Shown here: positions 8,293-36,173 of the stretch, one piece after another
Layout of the letters: every line of letters begins with the position of its first letter
Numbering within the stretch: position 1 is the stretch's first letter
Source of the DNA: Synechococcales cyanobacterium bin59.metabat.ball.084
GTDB taxonomy: Bacteria > Cyanobacteriota > Cyanobacteriia > Cyanobacteriales > Chamaesiphonaceae
Reading direction: 5' to 3'
NCBI GenBank assembly: GCA_013297675.1
Contig: JAAFHZ010000007.1
Span: 1 to 64,000, forward strand
DNA length: 64,000 bases
Position numbers and translations under genes: made by a program
The notes under the pieces: generated by a model
The model's input: the letters and a program-made list of their open reading frames with translations, nothing else
The model's database searches: none
Told to the model about the DNA's origin: nothing

Positions 8293-8931
8293 ATGACATC
8301 CAAACGCCGCAGTGCTGAAAGCGAAGAACTAAATATTTGGCCATCATTTACCGATCTGATGTCCAATGCTTTCATGATTAGTATGCTGTTAATCTTACTC
8401 TTGGTGATTAAAATACCAACGAAGAAGCAAGAACAGCCCAAAAAAGCGCCGCCAATCATTGAAATTCAAGACAGCGGAGCCTACCGATTTTTATCGGGCA
8501 GCGCTGAATCCCCTGCTGAAATGACTAACTATCTTGAAACCAAACTAGTTTCTCAAATTGAGGAACAGGTTCGAGAAAATAAAATCGATGTGATTGAAAT
8601 TATTGGTCATACCGATGCACAGCCCAATGCGATCAATGCTGGAAACCTAGATAGCAAAATTCAGGATGTGGCAGCAAACAAGTTTCCGATATCAATGTTG
8701 AAAGCTAGCTCTAACGCAGACTTAGGTCTAATGAGAGCTTTGACAGTGGTAAAGATTTTGAAGAATATCCAGTCTAGTTCAAGTCATCTGAAGGGTGTCA
8801 AATTCAGAGCTTACTCTGCTGGTCAGCTAATTCTCCCCCGAGATATTGAATCTGCCGATCCACAGGATGGTCGTCGCCGTCGGATCGAAATTCGGTTTAC
8901 TCGTGATGGCAAGGTGACAAAAGTAGGATAG
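8293..8931 (+). CDS. zorB: ZorB-like MotB/OmpA-family stator subunit
   Basis: The 212-residue protein has a short cytoplasmic start, one membrane helix (about residues 22-42) and a periplasmic OmpA/MotB domain. Asp21 in WPSFTDLMS sits at the entrance of the helix, where MotB-type stators carry their proton-binding Asp. EIIGHTDAQPN and the C-terminal GRRRRIEIRF match peptidoglycan-binding OmpA motifs. With the gene upstream it should form an ion-driven inner-membrane motor anchored to the wall. ZorB of Zorya is the closest architecture. No zorC, zorD or zorE follows: the next gene is on the other strand and encodes a small membrane protein. Confidence 0.82.
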   Translation: MTSKRRSAESEELNIWPSFTDLMSNAFMISMLLILLLVIKIPTKKQEQPKKAPPIIEIQDSGAYRFLSGSAESPAEMTNYLETKLVSQIEEQVRENKIDVIEIIGHTDAQPNAINAGNLDSKIQDVAANKFPISMLKASSNADLGLMRALTVVKILKNIQSSSSHLKGVKFRAYSAGQLILPRDIESADPQDGRRRRIEIRFTRDGKVTKVG

Positions 8932-9031
8932 CTTCGTAGGTCTTGATGATCGATTAATTTCTTGATTTGCAATCTATAGCAATGGTATTCAATGAACAAT
9001 TGATGATGGCAAAACGACTCCTTACAAAATA

Positions 9032-9088
9032 TTAGGATCTATGATGGTTCAAGATTTGCTATGCAGCTTGAACCATCATAGATCCTAA
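9032..9088. terminator. Long perfect hairpin downstream of the zorB-like gene
   Basis: Arms 9032-9053 and 9067-9088 are exact 22-base reverse complements with a 13-base loop. The hairpin lies between the convergent ends of the zorB-like gene and the small membrane protein gene, so it can serve both strands. Its outer half (ttaggatctatgatgg) resembles the hairpin upstream of the zorA-like gene (tttagggttcatgg). Confidence 0.75.
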
Positions 9089-9099
9089 ATTCAACCAGG

Positions 9100-9510
9100 C
9101 TACTCTCCCCAAGAATCCAGATCGAGTGCCGCAGAGCCACCCTGATCGAGTTCTTTAAACACACCCTTGAGCTGAATCCACAAAAACAGAGTGGTCAGTA
9201 GGGTCATTGGAATCGCCAATCCGGCGGCCAAGATATCTGGAAAGCCAAAAATGGACAGTCCTGAGGTCAAGAAAATTCCCACCCCGGCAGCAATACCCAC
9301 AAAAGGGACTTGGAGAGGGAGTTTACCCGAGTTGGCCAAGCGAATATTGGCTCGATCGGCAGACCAAGCTTTGACGTTGGTTTTAAGAGTGGCATCGAAG
9401 GCTGCACCGCAGCTTATGCCCATGAACAAACCGACTACCAGTAAGAAGTATGGCGGATCGGTAGGATAGTAATACAAACAGAACTCCTGCAAATGGCTGA
9501 TGGAAATCAC
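9100..9510 (-). CDS. Small integral membrane protein, unknown function
   Basis: The product has two or three hydrophobic segments: one around YFLLVVGLFMGISCGAAF, then VGIAAGVGIFLTSGL and AGLAIPMTLLTTLFLW. A soluble loop separates the first two, and the C-terminus is acidic. I do not recognise the family. The longest frame begins at a GTG at 9510. A TTG at 9477-9475 preceded by GGAG at six bases is a better start and would remove the overlap with the mini-gene on the other strand. The 3' end faces the zorB-like gene across the hairpin. Nothing in the sequence links it functionally to that pair. Confidence 0.7.
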   Translation of the reverse strand: MISISHLQEFCLYYYPTDPPYFLLVVGLFMGISCGAAFDATLKTNVKAWSADRANIRLANSGKLPLQVPFVGIAAGVGIFLTSGLSIFGFPDILAAGLAIPMTLLTTLFLWIQLKGVFKELDQGGSAALDLDSWGE

Positions 9511-27013: not shown

Positions 27014-27547
27014 ATGGCTGTAATTACTCACGTTCCTGATGTAACCTTTAAGACCCGTGTTAGAGATGAATCCATAGGTGGTGATAACCCTTTTCGCTGG
27101 CAAGATGTCACAACGAAAGACCTGTTTGCAGGCAAGAGAGTTGTAGTCTTCTCCCTGCCCGGTGCTTTTACCCCTACTTGTTCGACTTCTCACCTGCCCC
27201 GCTATGAAGAGCTATATGACGAAATCAAGGCTCAGGGCGTAGATGCAGTAATCTGCATTTCAGTGAATGATGCATTTGTGATGTACCAATGGGGTAAGAG
27301 CCAAGGTGCGAAAAATGTCTTCTTGTTGCCTGACGGTAGCGGCGAGTTTTCGCGCAAGATGGGAATGTTGGTGGATAAGAGCAATCTTGGTTTTGGGATG
27401 CGTTCTTGGCGTTATTCTATGGTGGTCAAAGACATGGCGATCGAAAAGATTTTTGCTGAAGCTGGCTACAGTGACAACTGCCCTACCGACCCCTTTGAAG
27501 TATCTGATGCCAACACCATGCTGGCTTACTTAAAAAGCGCTAAGTAA
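27014..27547 (+). CDS. Type II (Prx5-like) peroxiredoxin
   Basis: This thiol peroxidase has 177 residues. The peroxidatic Cys is Cys56 in [14 protein letters not shown], and WRYSMVV with its conserved Arg lies downstream. It reduces hydrogen peroxide and organic peroxides, usually with glutaredoxin or thioredoxin. It is divergent from the PerR-like gene and followed after 56 bases by glutathione reductase, so a glutathione-linked peroxide defence unit is likely. Confidence 0.94.
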
Positions 27548-27603: not shown

Positions 27604-28956
27604 ATGAGCTACGACTACGATTTATTGGTAATTGGGGCTGGGTCTGGCGGCATTGCCACCGCCCGCCGCGCCGCCGAATACGGGGCAAAAGTGGCGGTGA
27701 TTGAATACGATCGACTGGGTGGCACCTGTGTAAATCGCGGCTGCATCCCCAAAAAATTGATGGTCTACGCTTCTCACTTTCCAGGACTGATGGCAGAGGC
27801 CGTAGGCTATGGCTGGGGTAAAGTAGAGAGCAAACTAGACTGGCCACAGATGGTTGAGAAAGTCCATGGTGAGACAGTCCGACTGAATGGCATCTACCAA
27901 AGAATGTTAGATAACTCTAAGGTGGAAGTGATTACCGGAGTTGGTTCGTTTGTAGATAGCCACACGGTGGCAGTTGGCGACAAAAAATATACCGGCGAGC
28001 GAATTTTGATTGCGGTAGGCGGAGAACCAATTAAACCGGCAGTATTAGGCATAGAACATGCTTTAACTTCCGATGAGATTTTTAACTTACCCACGCAGCC
28101 CAAAAAACTAGTTGTTTTGGGCGGTGGCTATATTGGTTCTGAATTTGCCAGTATTTTTAATGGTCTGGGCAGTGAAGTCACCCAGCTCATTCGCAGTGAC
28201 CTAATTTTGCGCGGCTTTGATCAAGAGTTACGAGAAGAAGTCCAAGCTGGCATGATTAATCACGGCATCAACATTCGTCATTCAATTGAGCTGCTGGCGA
28301 TCGAGCGAGTAGCTGAAGGCGTACTGGTGAAAATTAAAACTGGCGACTCGATCGAAACCCTGGAAGCTAATGCTTTGGCCTTATCAGCGTTAGGTCGCAA
28401 ACCCCGCATTGATAAATTAGGACTAGAAAATACTCAAGTAACCGTGCAAAATGGTGCAATAGCAGTAGATGAATACAACTGCACCAGCGAAAAGCATATT
28501 TACGCGGTGGGTGATTGCCTCGATCGCATTGAACTTACTCCAGTGGCCATCAATGAAGGCCGAGCATTCGCTGATACGGTTTTTGGCAACAAGCCGCGTT
28601 TGATGTCTTATACCAATATTCCTACGGCAATTTTCACCCATCCAGAGGCTGCAACCGTGGGTTTAACTGAAGCAGAGGCCAAAGAGCAATATGGCGAAGA
28701 TGCCATCAAGGTCTATCGCAGTAAGTTCCGGCCAATGTACTACGTACTACCAGACAAACAAGAAAAGACTCTGATGAAGCTGGTGGTAGAAATTGCTACC
28801 GATAAGGTATTGGGTGCTCATATGGTGGGCGACCATGCCGCAGAAATTATTCAGGGCGTAGCGATCGCCGTCAAAATGGGTGCCACCAAGGCCAACTTTG
28901 ATGCTACCGTTGGCATTCATCCTAGTTCTGCCGAAGAATTTGTGACTATGCGGTAG
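27604..28956 (+). CDS. gor: Glutathione-disulfide reductase
   Basis: The 450-residue flavoprotein disulfide reductase has an N-terminal FAD site (GAGSGGIATARRAAEYG), the redox pair GGTCVNRGCIPKK (Cys42/Cys47), the NAD(P)-binding GGGYIGSEFASIF, and the C-terminal catalytic His in VGIHPSSAEEFVT. It regenerates GSH using NAD(P)H. It probably shares a transcript with the peroxiredoxin. Confidence 0.95.
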   Translation: MSYDYDLLVIGAGSGGIATARRAAEYGAKVAVIEYDRLGGTCVNRGCIPKKLMVYASHFPGLMAEAVGYGWGKVESKLDWPQMVEKVHGETVRLNGIYQRMLDNSKVEVITGVGSFVDSHTVAVGDKKYTGERILIAVGGEPIKPAVLGIEHALTSDEIFNLPTQPKKLVVLGGGYIGSEFASIFNGLGSEVTQLIRSDLILRGFDQELREEVQAGMINHGINIRHSIELLAIERVAEGVLVKIKTGDSIETLEANALALSALGRKPRIDKLGLENTQVTVQNGAIAVDEYNCTSEKHIYAVGDCLDRIELTPVAINEGRAFADTVFGNKPRLMSYTNIPTAIFTHPEAATVGLTEAEAKEQYGEDAIKVYRSKFRPMYYVLPDKQEKTLMKLVVEIATDKVLGAHMVGDHAAEIIQGVAIAVKMGATKANFDATVGIHPSSAEEFVTMR

Positions 28957-28963
28957 TGATCAT

Positions 28964-31279
28964 TTAAGTTTCCACAAATAGCCCACTGCGACCAAAAGCC
29001 TCCTCGGCGGCGGTAAAAGCAGGTGCTTCATCGACAGTGTTCGGGTCAAAAAAGTAAGTTTCTTGGAGAAATCGTCCATTAATGATCGATGACTCCAGCT
29101 TATTGATATGGTCTTGAGCGATTTGGCAGGCTTTGGTGAGGCTGGCCAGATCGCCTTGATTGAGTAGTTGCTGTAGCTCTAAGCGAATACTAGCTAAGCG
29201 AGAGACTGGCCGCAGTAGTCCATAAATTCGATATAGTCGATCGGTGGCAATAGTGGCTTGTTGGAGGGCGTTGGCTCGGGCTAACTCTGAATCTAAGCTA
29301 GGCCAATGGCGCGTGGTGTAAAAGGCTTGTTCATCTTGGTGATACCATTCTTCGGAACGGGCGATCGAAGCTGAAACAGTATTGTGCAGTTTCCAGAAAA
29401 ACAAGCGCAAGGTTGCACCATCAACTACCGTAGCTAATTTGTCATCGATCGACATGTTGAAGTTTCCTCCTCCAGAGGATTGACCCAGCAGTAAATATTC
29501 TACCGGATACATATCGACTTCTTTGTTTTGCACAACGTAAGCATTGAGGTGATGACGACAATAAGGGCAAGGGTATAGACTAGCAAATAGCTTAAAGAAA
29601 CTCTTGAACAAATTGGTGCAAGTAATTTGTCGATCGAGGGGTTTGGTATCGATAATTTCGGCGGTAGTATGAAAAAATCGCCAGACTGCTGGACCCAAAT
29701 AATAAGGAAAACTCACCCGCATTTGCGAGTCTTTGATATCGTTGCGGCCAAGATAAACATCAATGAAAGCCACATACTGAGATAACACCCCCGATTCTCG
29801 GCCAAATTCTATCCGTTCTCGACGTTTTTGTACTCCATTGAGATAGTGATGAGTTAAGCGCCAAGCTTGTTGAACGGTCAATTTTTGGGCTGGGGTAAGA
29901 CCAGTAAAATTGGCAGAGACATCTTCACCATAGCGATCGAATTCGCCAGCGGCTTTGGTGGATGCGTACCATTCATTTAACTTTGCTTCGTCGGGGATGG
30001 TGTTAGCTGGTAAATCTGCTGCGGTGCTGACACTAAAGGCGGTCAATAGCTTGGGCATAAAGTCTTCGTACCAATAAGCCACCGGCATCATGGCACCATC
30101 GATGGTTTCTAGTGAATTGGTCAGAATTACTCGCTGCCACTGTTGCAAATAAGCTTGCGGATTTTCACCTGCCGGGATTGAGGCCGGAGTAAATTCTTGT
30201 TCAAGTTCTTGCTTGCGCAACCGGTTCAGTTCGTTGAGAGCTAATACTCCTTCGATAATATCTCCTACTTGCAAACGTTGTTTTTTCATGGTGATGGCAA
30301 ATTCCACCCCAGCAGCAAATTTTTCGCGGGCATTGGCCGATTTGCTGCGGGCAGCTAACATGGCTTCTGCCTCAGCTAACATTGCTGGTGTTTTGCTTAG
30401 GTTTGGCCAATCGTTGATCCGAGCTTCTGAACGAGCATATTCTGCGTTAATAGATTGCACGACGGCATCTAATAAGGGGTAACAAGCTGGTTCTACGATA
30501 TTTAATTCTTTATATAAATCGATCGATGTTTGGACAAAAGCCACGAAATCACTAATGCGATAGGGTAAGCTTTTGACTTGCAGATGAGTTTCATGATTGG
30601 CTGAGAAGCTCTCCCGAAAACAACGATAAGCTGCCCCTTGGATTAATCTGAACATGCCGATTTGCATTTGAAACCGAGAAGTCCCTCGATTTTTTTCGTC
30701 TGGAGATTGCGATGTTGTTGAATCTGGCACTGAGTCTACAGTGGTGTCTGGTTTGATAGGTAATGAGTTTGTATTTATGGCAGGACTGGTGTCTTCGCTA
30801 CTGATCGATGGCTCTGGGATCTGCTCTGCTTTGGGTTTAGCAGCTTGAGTTTCGGGGGGCAGTATTTGGCAAAATTCGGTAAAGCCGATCGAGCCATCGC
30901 CATCTTCATCAACTTCTTTAACTAAGGCGTTTAGCTCTGCATCAGTCAGGCCAAACTGGCTCATGACGCTCTGCATTTCGTGGGCGGTAATGTGGCCGCT
31001 GTGATCTTTATCAAATATGCTAAATGCCAGCTCTAGGCGGCTGCGTTGATCGCCTTGTTTGGCAATCATCAGAGTTTTGAATTCCTCGAATTCAATGCTG
31101 CCCGATCGATCAATATCTACTTCTTTAATCAGGTCACGGAGTGCGGTTTCGCTCAGTGATTGTCCTAAAGATTTTAATACTTCGCCTAGTTCGATGGCAG
31201 AGATAGCACCACTATTGTCTGTATCAAAAATGCTGAAAGCTGCCCACAGTTTTTCAACTTCAGTTTTATTTAATAGCAT
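28964..31279 (-). CDS. Calmodulin-like EF-hand protein fused to an Erv/ALR-like thiol oxidase region
   Basis: The 771-residue protein starts with four canonical EF-hand loops at residues 19-30, 55-66, 90-101 and 124-135 (for example DTDNSGAISAIE and DEDGDGSIGFTE). Their spacing is nearly that of eukaryotic calmodulin. After a Pro/Ser/Thr-rich linker (about 140-200) comes a long helical region. Near residues 530-640 are GPAVWRFFHTTAEI, SLYPCPYCRHHL (CPYC at 571-574) and FFWKLHNTVSASI, in the order of the FAD-binding W/H, CxxC and HN motifs of Erv1/ALR sulfhydryl oxidases. No signal peptide or membrane helix is seen. ATG 31279 has GAGG six bases upstream and is preferred to a TTG at 31291. Function inferred: calcium-responsive disulfide formation. 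Confidence 0.8.
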   Translation of the reverse strand: MLLNKTEVEKLWAAFSIFDTDNSGAISAIELGEVLKSLGQSLSETALRDLIKEVDIDRSGSIEFEEFKTLMIAKQGDQRSRLELAFSIFDKDHSGHITAHEMQSVMSQFGLTDAELNALVKEVDEDGDGSIGFTEFCQILPPETQAAKPKAEQIPEPSISSEDTSPAINTNSLPIKPDTTVDSVPDSTTSQSPDEKNRGTSRFQMQIGMFRLIQGAAYRCFRESFSANHETHLQVKSLPYRISDFVAFVQTSIDLYKELNIVEPACYPLLDAVVQSINAEYARSEARINDWPNLSKTPAMLAEAEAMLAARSKSANAREKFAAGVEFAITMKKQRLQVGDIIEGVLALNELNRLRKQELEQEFTPASIPAGENPQAYLQQWQRVILTNSLETIDGAMMPVAYWYEDFMPKLLTAFSVSTAADLPANTIPDEAKLNEWYASTKAAGEFDRYGEDVSANFTGLTPAQKLTVQQAWRLTHHYLNGVQKRRERIEFGRESGVLSQYVAFIDVYLGRNDIKDSQMRVSFPYYLGPAVWRFFHTTAEIIDTKPLDRQITCTNLFKSFFKLFASLYPCPYCRHHLNAYVVQNKEVDMYPVEYLLLGQSSGGGNFNMSIDDKLATVVDGATLRLFFWKLHNTVSASIARSEEWYHQDEQAFYTTRHWPSLDSELARANALQQATIATDRLYRIYGLLRPVSRLASIRLELQQLLNQGDLASLTKACQIAQDHINKLESSIINGRFLQETYFFDPNTVDEAPAFTAAEEAFGRSGLFVET

Positions 31280-34208: not shown

Positions 34209-36173
34209 TTATAGTCTGATCCGATTTGACCATCGCTGGCGTTGGATCTCGTACAGAGCCATTGCCGCTGCGGTCGCCGCATTCAGGCTGGCGGTTTTGC
34301 CCGAAAGCGGGATCGAGATCAAGAAATCGCAGGTGTTTTCGGTAAGTAAACTGAGTCCTTCACCTTCTGCTCCGATAACTATAACGACTGGCCCAGTAAA
34401 TTTGACATCGTGGATAGCCGTCGGAGCCGTAGCCACTGTGCCATAGATCCAGAATCCGGCTTCTTTGAGTTCTTGCAGAGCACGGCTAAGGTTTGTGACT
34501 CTGGCAACCGGCAGATGCTCTAGCGCCCCGGCTGCGACCTTCTGGACGCTGCTAGTGATCCCTACCGCTCGTCGCTGGGGAATCACTAAACCCTGGACTC
34601 CCAGGGCTTCGGCAGTACGCACCATTGCCCCTAAGTTTTGGGGATCAGTTAAGCTATCGGCAACCAAAATCACTGGCTGCTCGTTACCTTCTTTGGCTTT
34701 GGTAATAAGTTCTGTCAGATCCCAATAGTGGTAAGGGGCAACTTGGGCCACGATCCCTTGATGATTGCCGCCATCGCAAAGCTGATGCAAGCGACGCACA
34801 TCTACTTCGTCTACTACTGTACCGGTGCCTTTGGATTCGGTAACTAGTAGATTAAATTGGGGATCGTAGCGGAGTTTGGGGAGCAACCAAATGCGATTGA
34901 TTTGCCGACCGCTTTCTAATGCGCTTAATACCGAATGCTTACCGTAGATAAAATCTTCGGAAGCTTGTTCTAGTGGTGCCGAAGATTCTTGGGCGTTGAG
35001 TTGTTCAAAATAAATGGTGTCGCCTTCTACTTTGTCCTTCCCAGCATATCTCTGGTCTCCATAAGGTTTTCGAGGCTCTTTGTCTCTCTGGAATCCCCCA
35101 TCATCAAAGGATCTACGTGGTGCCCGATCATCACCACCAAACCGACTATCGCCAAAAGACTTGCGCGGTGCGCGATCACCTTTGGTGTAAGGGGAGCTAT
35201 CGGTTGGGTTAAACGGCTTTCGATCGCTAAAGGGTTTGCGGGCTGGCCGATCTCCTTGAAATCCGCCATCATCAAAGGATCTGCGTGGTGCTCTGTCATC
35301 GCCACCGAAGCGACTGTCACCAAAAGATTTACGCGGAGCACGATCGTTTGGATTAAACGGCTTGCGATCTGGACGATCTCCACCTCCAAATGGTTTTCTG
35401 GCTGGCCGATCTCCCTGATATCCACCGTCATCAAAGGATCTACGGGGCGCTCTGTCATCGCCACCAAAAGGTTTGCGCGGTGCTCGATCTGTGGGATTAA
35501 ATGGCTTGCGGGGACGATCGGAGAATCCACCATCTCTGTCGCCAAAGGATTTACGTGGTGCTCGATCTGTGGGATTAAATGGCTTGCGGGGACGATCGGA
35601 GAAGCTGCCATCTCTATCGCCAAAAGATTTGCGTGGTGCCCGATCGTCTCCACCGAATCGTCTATCGCTGTCAAAGGATTTTTTTGGCCGATCTGAGAAG
35701 TTGCCTTCTCTATCGCCAAAAGATTTACGCGGTGCTCGATCATCCCCACCAAAGCGCCGATCGCTAGGTGCGCCACCGTCGCGGTTAAAAGGCTTACGTG
35801 GTGGTCGATCATCGCCGCCGAATCTGCTATCCCGGTCAAAAGATTTGCGCGGTGCCCGGTCGTTAGGATTAAATGGCTTGCGGTCGCTCTCAAATTTACG
35901 AGCTGGACGGTCTGAGAAGTTACCACCTGAGAAATTACCACCGTCTCTGTCACCAAAAGATTTGCGGGATGGTCGGTCGTCGCCGCCAAATCTGCTATCC
36001 CGGTCAAAAGATTTACGCGGTGCACGGTCGGCGAAGCTATCGTCGCCACCTGTTCCTACTGTTCTGCGGGGCTTGCGTTCACGAAGTGTCTCTGAAAGAG
36101 AATCGCGGGGGGTAGTGTCATCAGCACGACGACTACCAAAATTACCACCAGCTTTACGGGGTTTAAAAGGCAT
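34209..36173 (-). CDS. rlmB: 23S rRNA 2'-O-ribose methyltransferase (RlmB/TrmH family) with long RG/D-rich N-terminus
   Basis: The last 240 residues are a complete SpoU-type enzyme. A substrate-binding L30-like domain starts at [16 protein letters not shown] knotted SAM domain follows, with [30 protein letters not shown] and [20 protein letters not shown]. RlmB methylates the G2251 ribose in 23S rRNA. The first 390 residues are disordered, made of repeated Arg/Asp/Gly/Phe units such as [14 protein letters not shown] and [16 protein letters not shown], far longer than in common RlmB. This region probably binds RNA or drives condensation. mrnC lies 34 bases upstream. Confidence 0.92.
34990..36110 (-). 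repeat. Imperfect repeats coding [11 protein letters not shown]-type units in rlmB
   Basis: Many 30-90 bp imperfect repeats (motif agatttacgcggtgctcgatc on the plus strand) encode R-, D- and G-rich units. The repeats keep several antisense frames open, which are not genes. Confidence 0.85.

Follow-up and report, generated by a model that had tools for sequence, protein, structure and literature searches.

The Erv/ALR core is generally taken to belong to eukaryotes and viruses. Its described members (Arabidopsis Erv1, 2hj3; yeast Erv1; Erv2; ALR) carry the motifs GxxxWxxxH, YPCxxC and HNxV in this order, and in QSOX the Erv domain is part of a multi-domain polypeptide that carries a thioredoxin-type domain. 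A survey from 2011, based on the data of its time, considered Erv1 a eukaryotic invention and stated a CX16C motif for all the Erv1 proteins aligned there (PMC3097184). At the Pfam level, the Evr1_Alr domain has been noted in Nostocales, Oscillatoriophycidea, Rhizobiales and Rhodobacterales (PMC10598087), and a Gemmobacter relative of the protein described here is named "ERV1/ALR-related protein" by NCBI. Fusions of bacterial calmodulin-like EF-hand domains to NADPH oxidase, nitric oxide synthase, thioredoxin and 7TM proteins are described in PMC7016017, the text of which also speaks of unnamed cysteine-rich domains together with cyanobacterial calmodulin homologues and has no mention of Erv or sulfhydryl oxidases. 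These fusions share with the protein analyzed here a calmodulin-like module joined to a redox domain. A fusion of EF hands to an Erv (sulfhydryl oxidase) domain was not found described in the searched open-licence literature, in agreement with the initial annotation, which knew of no protein with this architecture; an earlier description elsewhere is possible.

The gene under study is located on contig JAAFHZ010000007.1 of Synechococcales cyanobacterium bin59.metabat.ball.084, in a window of 64,000 nucleotides (the whole stretch of DNA analyzed). It is present in single copy in its own genome and codes for a protein of 771 aa (Table 1). The layout read in the initial annotation, four EF loops spaced 36/35/34 residues followed by three ordered C-terminal motifs, was recovered entirely within this open reading frame. 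In our preferred reading, to which we give a probability of about one half, the product would be an enzyme from the Erv/ALR superfamily of flavin sulfhydryl oxidases, soluble and located in the cytosol, to which a calcium sensor resembling calmodulin is tethered.

Table 1. Features of the calmodulin-like/Erv fusion gene and its product (positions in the window).
Feature	Residues	Position	Strand	Basis
Gene, calmodulin-like/Erv fusion protein	771 aa	28964-31279	-	start ATG 31279, stop 28964-28966
Calmodulin-like domain, four EF hands	1-140	30860-31279	-	Pfam, phmmer; dN/dS ~0.11 across close pairs
EF loop 1 DTDNSGAISAIE	19-30	31190-31225	-	loop pattern
EF loop 2 DIDRSGSIEFEE	55-66	31082-31117	-	loop pattern
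EF loop 3 DKDHSGHITAHE	90-101	30977-31012	-	loop pattern
EF loop 4 DEDGDGSIGFTE	124-135	30875-30910	-	loop pattern
Linker, predicted disordered	141-198	30686-30859	-	pLDDT <50 at 143-194; fastest-evolving part
Middle helical domain, strongly conserved, without Pfam match	199-512	29744-30685	-	Pfam, alignment, model
Erv/ALR-like core	529-641	29357-29695	-	PF04777, PDB profile matches, hhalign to plant Erv1/ALR
GPAVWRFFHTTAEI, first Erv helix motif (W533, H537)	529-542	29654-29695	-	both invariant, 87 sequences
CPYC redox motif (Cys571, Cys574)	571-574	29558-29569	-	family's only invariant cysteines
Insertion of ~29 residues relative to plant Erv1, CxxC to HN	about 585-618	approx. 29426-29527	-	hhalign
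WKLHNTVSASI, HN motif (H632, N633)	629-639	29363-29395	-	alignment, Pfam, hhalign
C-terminal helical extension	661-771	28967-29299	-	alignment, model

A scan of bacterial genomes, one for each of 84,980 species, revealed 114 relatives. The best 80 of these came from filamentous cyanobacteria, picocyanobacteria, Nannocystis and Enhygromyxa (Nannocystaceae), and alpha- and betaproteobacterial genomes and MAGs. Their common architecture starts with an N-terminal part and a linker, continues with a middle domain (about 310 residues, no Pfam match) and the Erv core, and ends in a helical C-terminal extension, so that the fusion of EF hands and Erv first read from one sequence is conserved in bacteria. 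Within the same class, 12 of the 390 genomes sampled had Evr1_Alr, and every one of these occurrences belonged to the fusion family. The initial annotation had called the Erv signature rare in bacteria; this held for the cyanobacterial genomes, but the domain had already been noted in Nostocales, Rhodobacterales and other groups. The copy in one of the 12 genomes (L012, genome G377) carries an in-frame deletion that removes the middle domain and joins the EF part to the Erv core, contains an internal TAG and is probably decaying; in another genome of the same genus (G335, locus L019), the match was limited to the last 45 residues. A locus on a contig titled as a Klebsiella pneumoniae MAG (L084) grouped in the tree with freshwater proteobacterial MAGs, and its title is probably a mislabel.

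The N-terminal part resembles calmodulin in having four EF hands with the 36/35/34 loop spacing and about 42-44% identity over 140 residues. Pfam matched EF-hand_7 at 3e-30 in the 771-aa protein, calmodulins were matched at about 1e-30 by phmmer against PDB chains, and the EF-loop pattern occurred in the shuffled protein with a mean of 0.036 and a maximum of 2 (5000 shuffles). The four EF hands form two pairs with canonical loops, the arrangement that characterizes calmodulin-like proteins, and the profile searches supported the calmodulin-like assignment with a real margin. The family differs from calmodulin in that it is bacterial and covalently fused, and in that the loops are gone in several clades. 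Under the strict pattern, four canonical loops were present in 53 of the 86 tree members, three in 11, one or two in 11 and none in 11, one of these last (L081) being scored as loop-less only because its contig ends there. Members with four loops occur across filamentous cyanobacteria and Nannocystaceae, and most cyanobacteria and Nannocystaceae retain all four. Loss of loops was clustered: hardly any loops, or none, remain on the picocyanobacterial branch and in two Rhodobacterales, and other alphaproteobacteria retain mainly loops 3 and 4. As the loops have decayed in picocyanobacteria and some Rhodobacterales, the function common to the core does not require Ca2+. A basic stretch of the middle domain (NGVQKRRE) was considered as an internal calmodulin target and rejected, because members that lack EF loops conserve it just as well.

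This pattern bears on an alternative in which the Erv-type oxidase is active and the EF hands have a structural, Ca2+-buffering or partner-docking role, without gating catalysis. Such a role would fit a linker that is long and variable, and middle and Erv domains that are still conserved where all loops have been lost (L103, L108 and most picocyanobacteria). We nevertheless consider it rather unlikely, given that four loops with canonical ligands are under purifying selection in most cyanobacteria and Nannocystaceae. When close pairs were pooled, dN/dS was about 0.11 for the EF part, 0.07 for the Erv core and 0.26 for the linker, and both domains are under purifying selection. Since the value of the EF part lies near that of the Erv core and below that of the linker, Ca2+ binding is probably maintained where the loops are present.

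The comparison with Evr1_Alr proposed in the initial annotation for residues 500-660, which bracket the Erv core correctly, was carried out with Pfam on the 771-aa protein and gave a match of 39.6 bits to PF04777, the curated cut-off being 27.6. All 54 relatives matched the same family, and in three of ten members scanned singly the match covered positions 2-82 of 93, running through the HN motif. When a profile built from 54 sequences of residues 495-771 was searched against the PDB, the top 13 matches were only Erv-family chains (Erv1, Erv2, ALR and viral FAD-linked sulfhydryl oxidase), the best being plant Erv1 at 9.4e-6. An hhalign comparison with plant Erv1, in a sequence letter-for-letter identical to 2hj3, and ALR (1oqc) aligned 82 columns with a probability of 97.5%; the aligned stretch begins in the GxxxW helix, includes CxxC and reaches HN, bridging the insertion located between the last two motifs. 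Homology to Erv/ALR was thus supported by the profile searches, again with a real margin.

In the alignment of 87 sequences, W533, H537, C571 and C574 are invariant, and H632 and N633 are conserved in 86. The motifs occur in the same order as in Erv1/ALR: GxxxWxxxH is present as GPAVWRFFH, YPCxxC as YPCPYC, and HNxVN as HNTVS, with serine replacing the last asparagine. Apart from this serine, the family differs from Erv1/ALR in being bacterial, in its N-terminal calmodulin-like and middle domains, in the insertion, and in the absence of the CX16C motif and of a shuttle cysteine pair. Since only the CPYC cysteines are invariant, and no other conserved cysteine pair that could act as a distal shuttle was found in the family alignment, the CX16C and shuttle disulfides of Erv1 are absent; accordingly, we class the family as an Erv-superfamily variant and not as Erv1. 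The Erv domain lies, as in QSOX, within a multi-domain polypeptide, and Pfam found no thioredoxin-type domain in the 771-aa protein. The missing cysteines, together with the large insertion and a middle domain whose conservation is close to that of the Erv core, would suit an Erv-derived, FAD-binding redox sensor or scaffold that is no general thiol oxidase, for example one in which the middle domain handles another substrate. This seems distinctly improbable to us, because hardly any member departs from the residues that bear the chemistry (CPYC, W, H and HN).

An AlphaFold2 model of residues 199-771 (pTM 0.85, mean pLDDT 80) predicted helices at 530-544, 548-567, 572-583 and 621-642, in the Erv order, the third of them opened by CPYC and the fourth bearing HN; confidence around CPYC was modest (block pLDDT about 70-76). 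Foldseek searches of this model against the PDB returned no Erv structure at E<=10, possibly because a small, elaborated domain scores poorly inside a 573-residue query; the matches were due to chance only and gave no assignment for the middle domain. When the full model was searched, calmodulins crowded out everything else. That the C-terminal region has no Erv fold at all, its motifs being convergent or due to chance, would agree with this fold search but is very improbable in view of the independent profile evidence in both directions. Among viral models there was one strong match to residues 199-771, Yasminevirus A0A5K0UAY3 (BFVD; E 1.7e-18, TM 0.61, 21% identity), a 1140-aa giant-virus protein labelled histidine kinase. 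Its predicted structure fits the middle and Erv part, and the two domains may thus occur together outside bacteria. Viral relatives were not found in three viral-contig scans using different conserved stretches, in phage records or in PHROGs.

The initial annotation had placed the gene beside glutathione reductase and peroxiredoxin genes. Both neighbors are there, a redoxin gene (27014-27547, +) and a glutathione-reductase-like gene (27604-28956, +), and they are convergent with the fusion gene and share no operon with it. Homologues of either were found in none of 80 related loci (the best 80 of 114; flanks of up to about 7 kb on each side, less on short contigs), nor was any other neighbor conserved across them. 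The neighborhood therefore provides no evidence of function, and operon logic was discarded as a guide to it. Five freshwater proteobacterial loci (L083, L084, L086, L089 and L095) contain near the fusion gene a gene for a 341-369-aa protein without Pfam match (8328-9350, -, in L083), at 34-61 bp in four of the five. This protein has CAxCH and HDVHHVLAGY motifs, which we take to recall Coq4. Elsewhere in the window, an ORF at 34209-36173 (-) codes for 654 aa with a long N-terminal run of repeats followed by a SpoU-type RNA methyltransferase-like part.

In the reading that we prefer, of an Erv-type oxidase with a tethered calcium sensor, a dithiol substrate, either a protein or a small redox carrier, would reduce the CPYC disulfide, probably directly in view of the lack of CX16C and of a conserved shuttle pair. 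From CPYC the electrons would move on to FAD, bound between the GxxxW/H (W533/H537) helix and the HN (H632/N633) helix, and reduced FAD would pass them to O2, producing H2O2, or to another acceptor. With some 50 residues of flexible linker in between, the calmodulin-like lobes would be free to fold onto the middle/Erv body, and in members with intact loops Ca2+ would rearrange these lobes against that body, raising or lowering the rate. Simple hydropathy gave no clear sign of a signal peptide or of a transmembrane segment (highest 19-residue value, 1.04), making a cytosolic site likely. A thiol oxidase in the reducing cytosol is unusual, and we counted this against the preferred reading, together with the replaced asparagine, the missing CX16C and shuttle disulfides, the modest confidence at CPYC, the fold search without Erv, the decayed EF loops in some clades and the lack of a conserved genomic partner.

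The further proposal that the built-in calmodulin gates cytosolic disulfide formation and H2O2 production, so that a calcium transient would be turned into a thiol-redox signal by an Erv core usually thought eukaryotic, is put forward tentatively, at clearly less than even odds. An Erv-core family conserved in several bacterial groups, plus the structural match in a giant virus, bears on the origin of Erv. If the proposal is true, a single bacterial polypeptide would couple calcium to disulfide chemistry, thiol oxidation in the fusion family may be turned on or off by calcium, and calcium-to-redox signaling in cyanobacteria would become directly testable with one gene.
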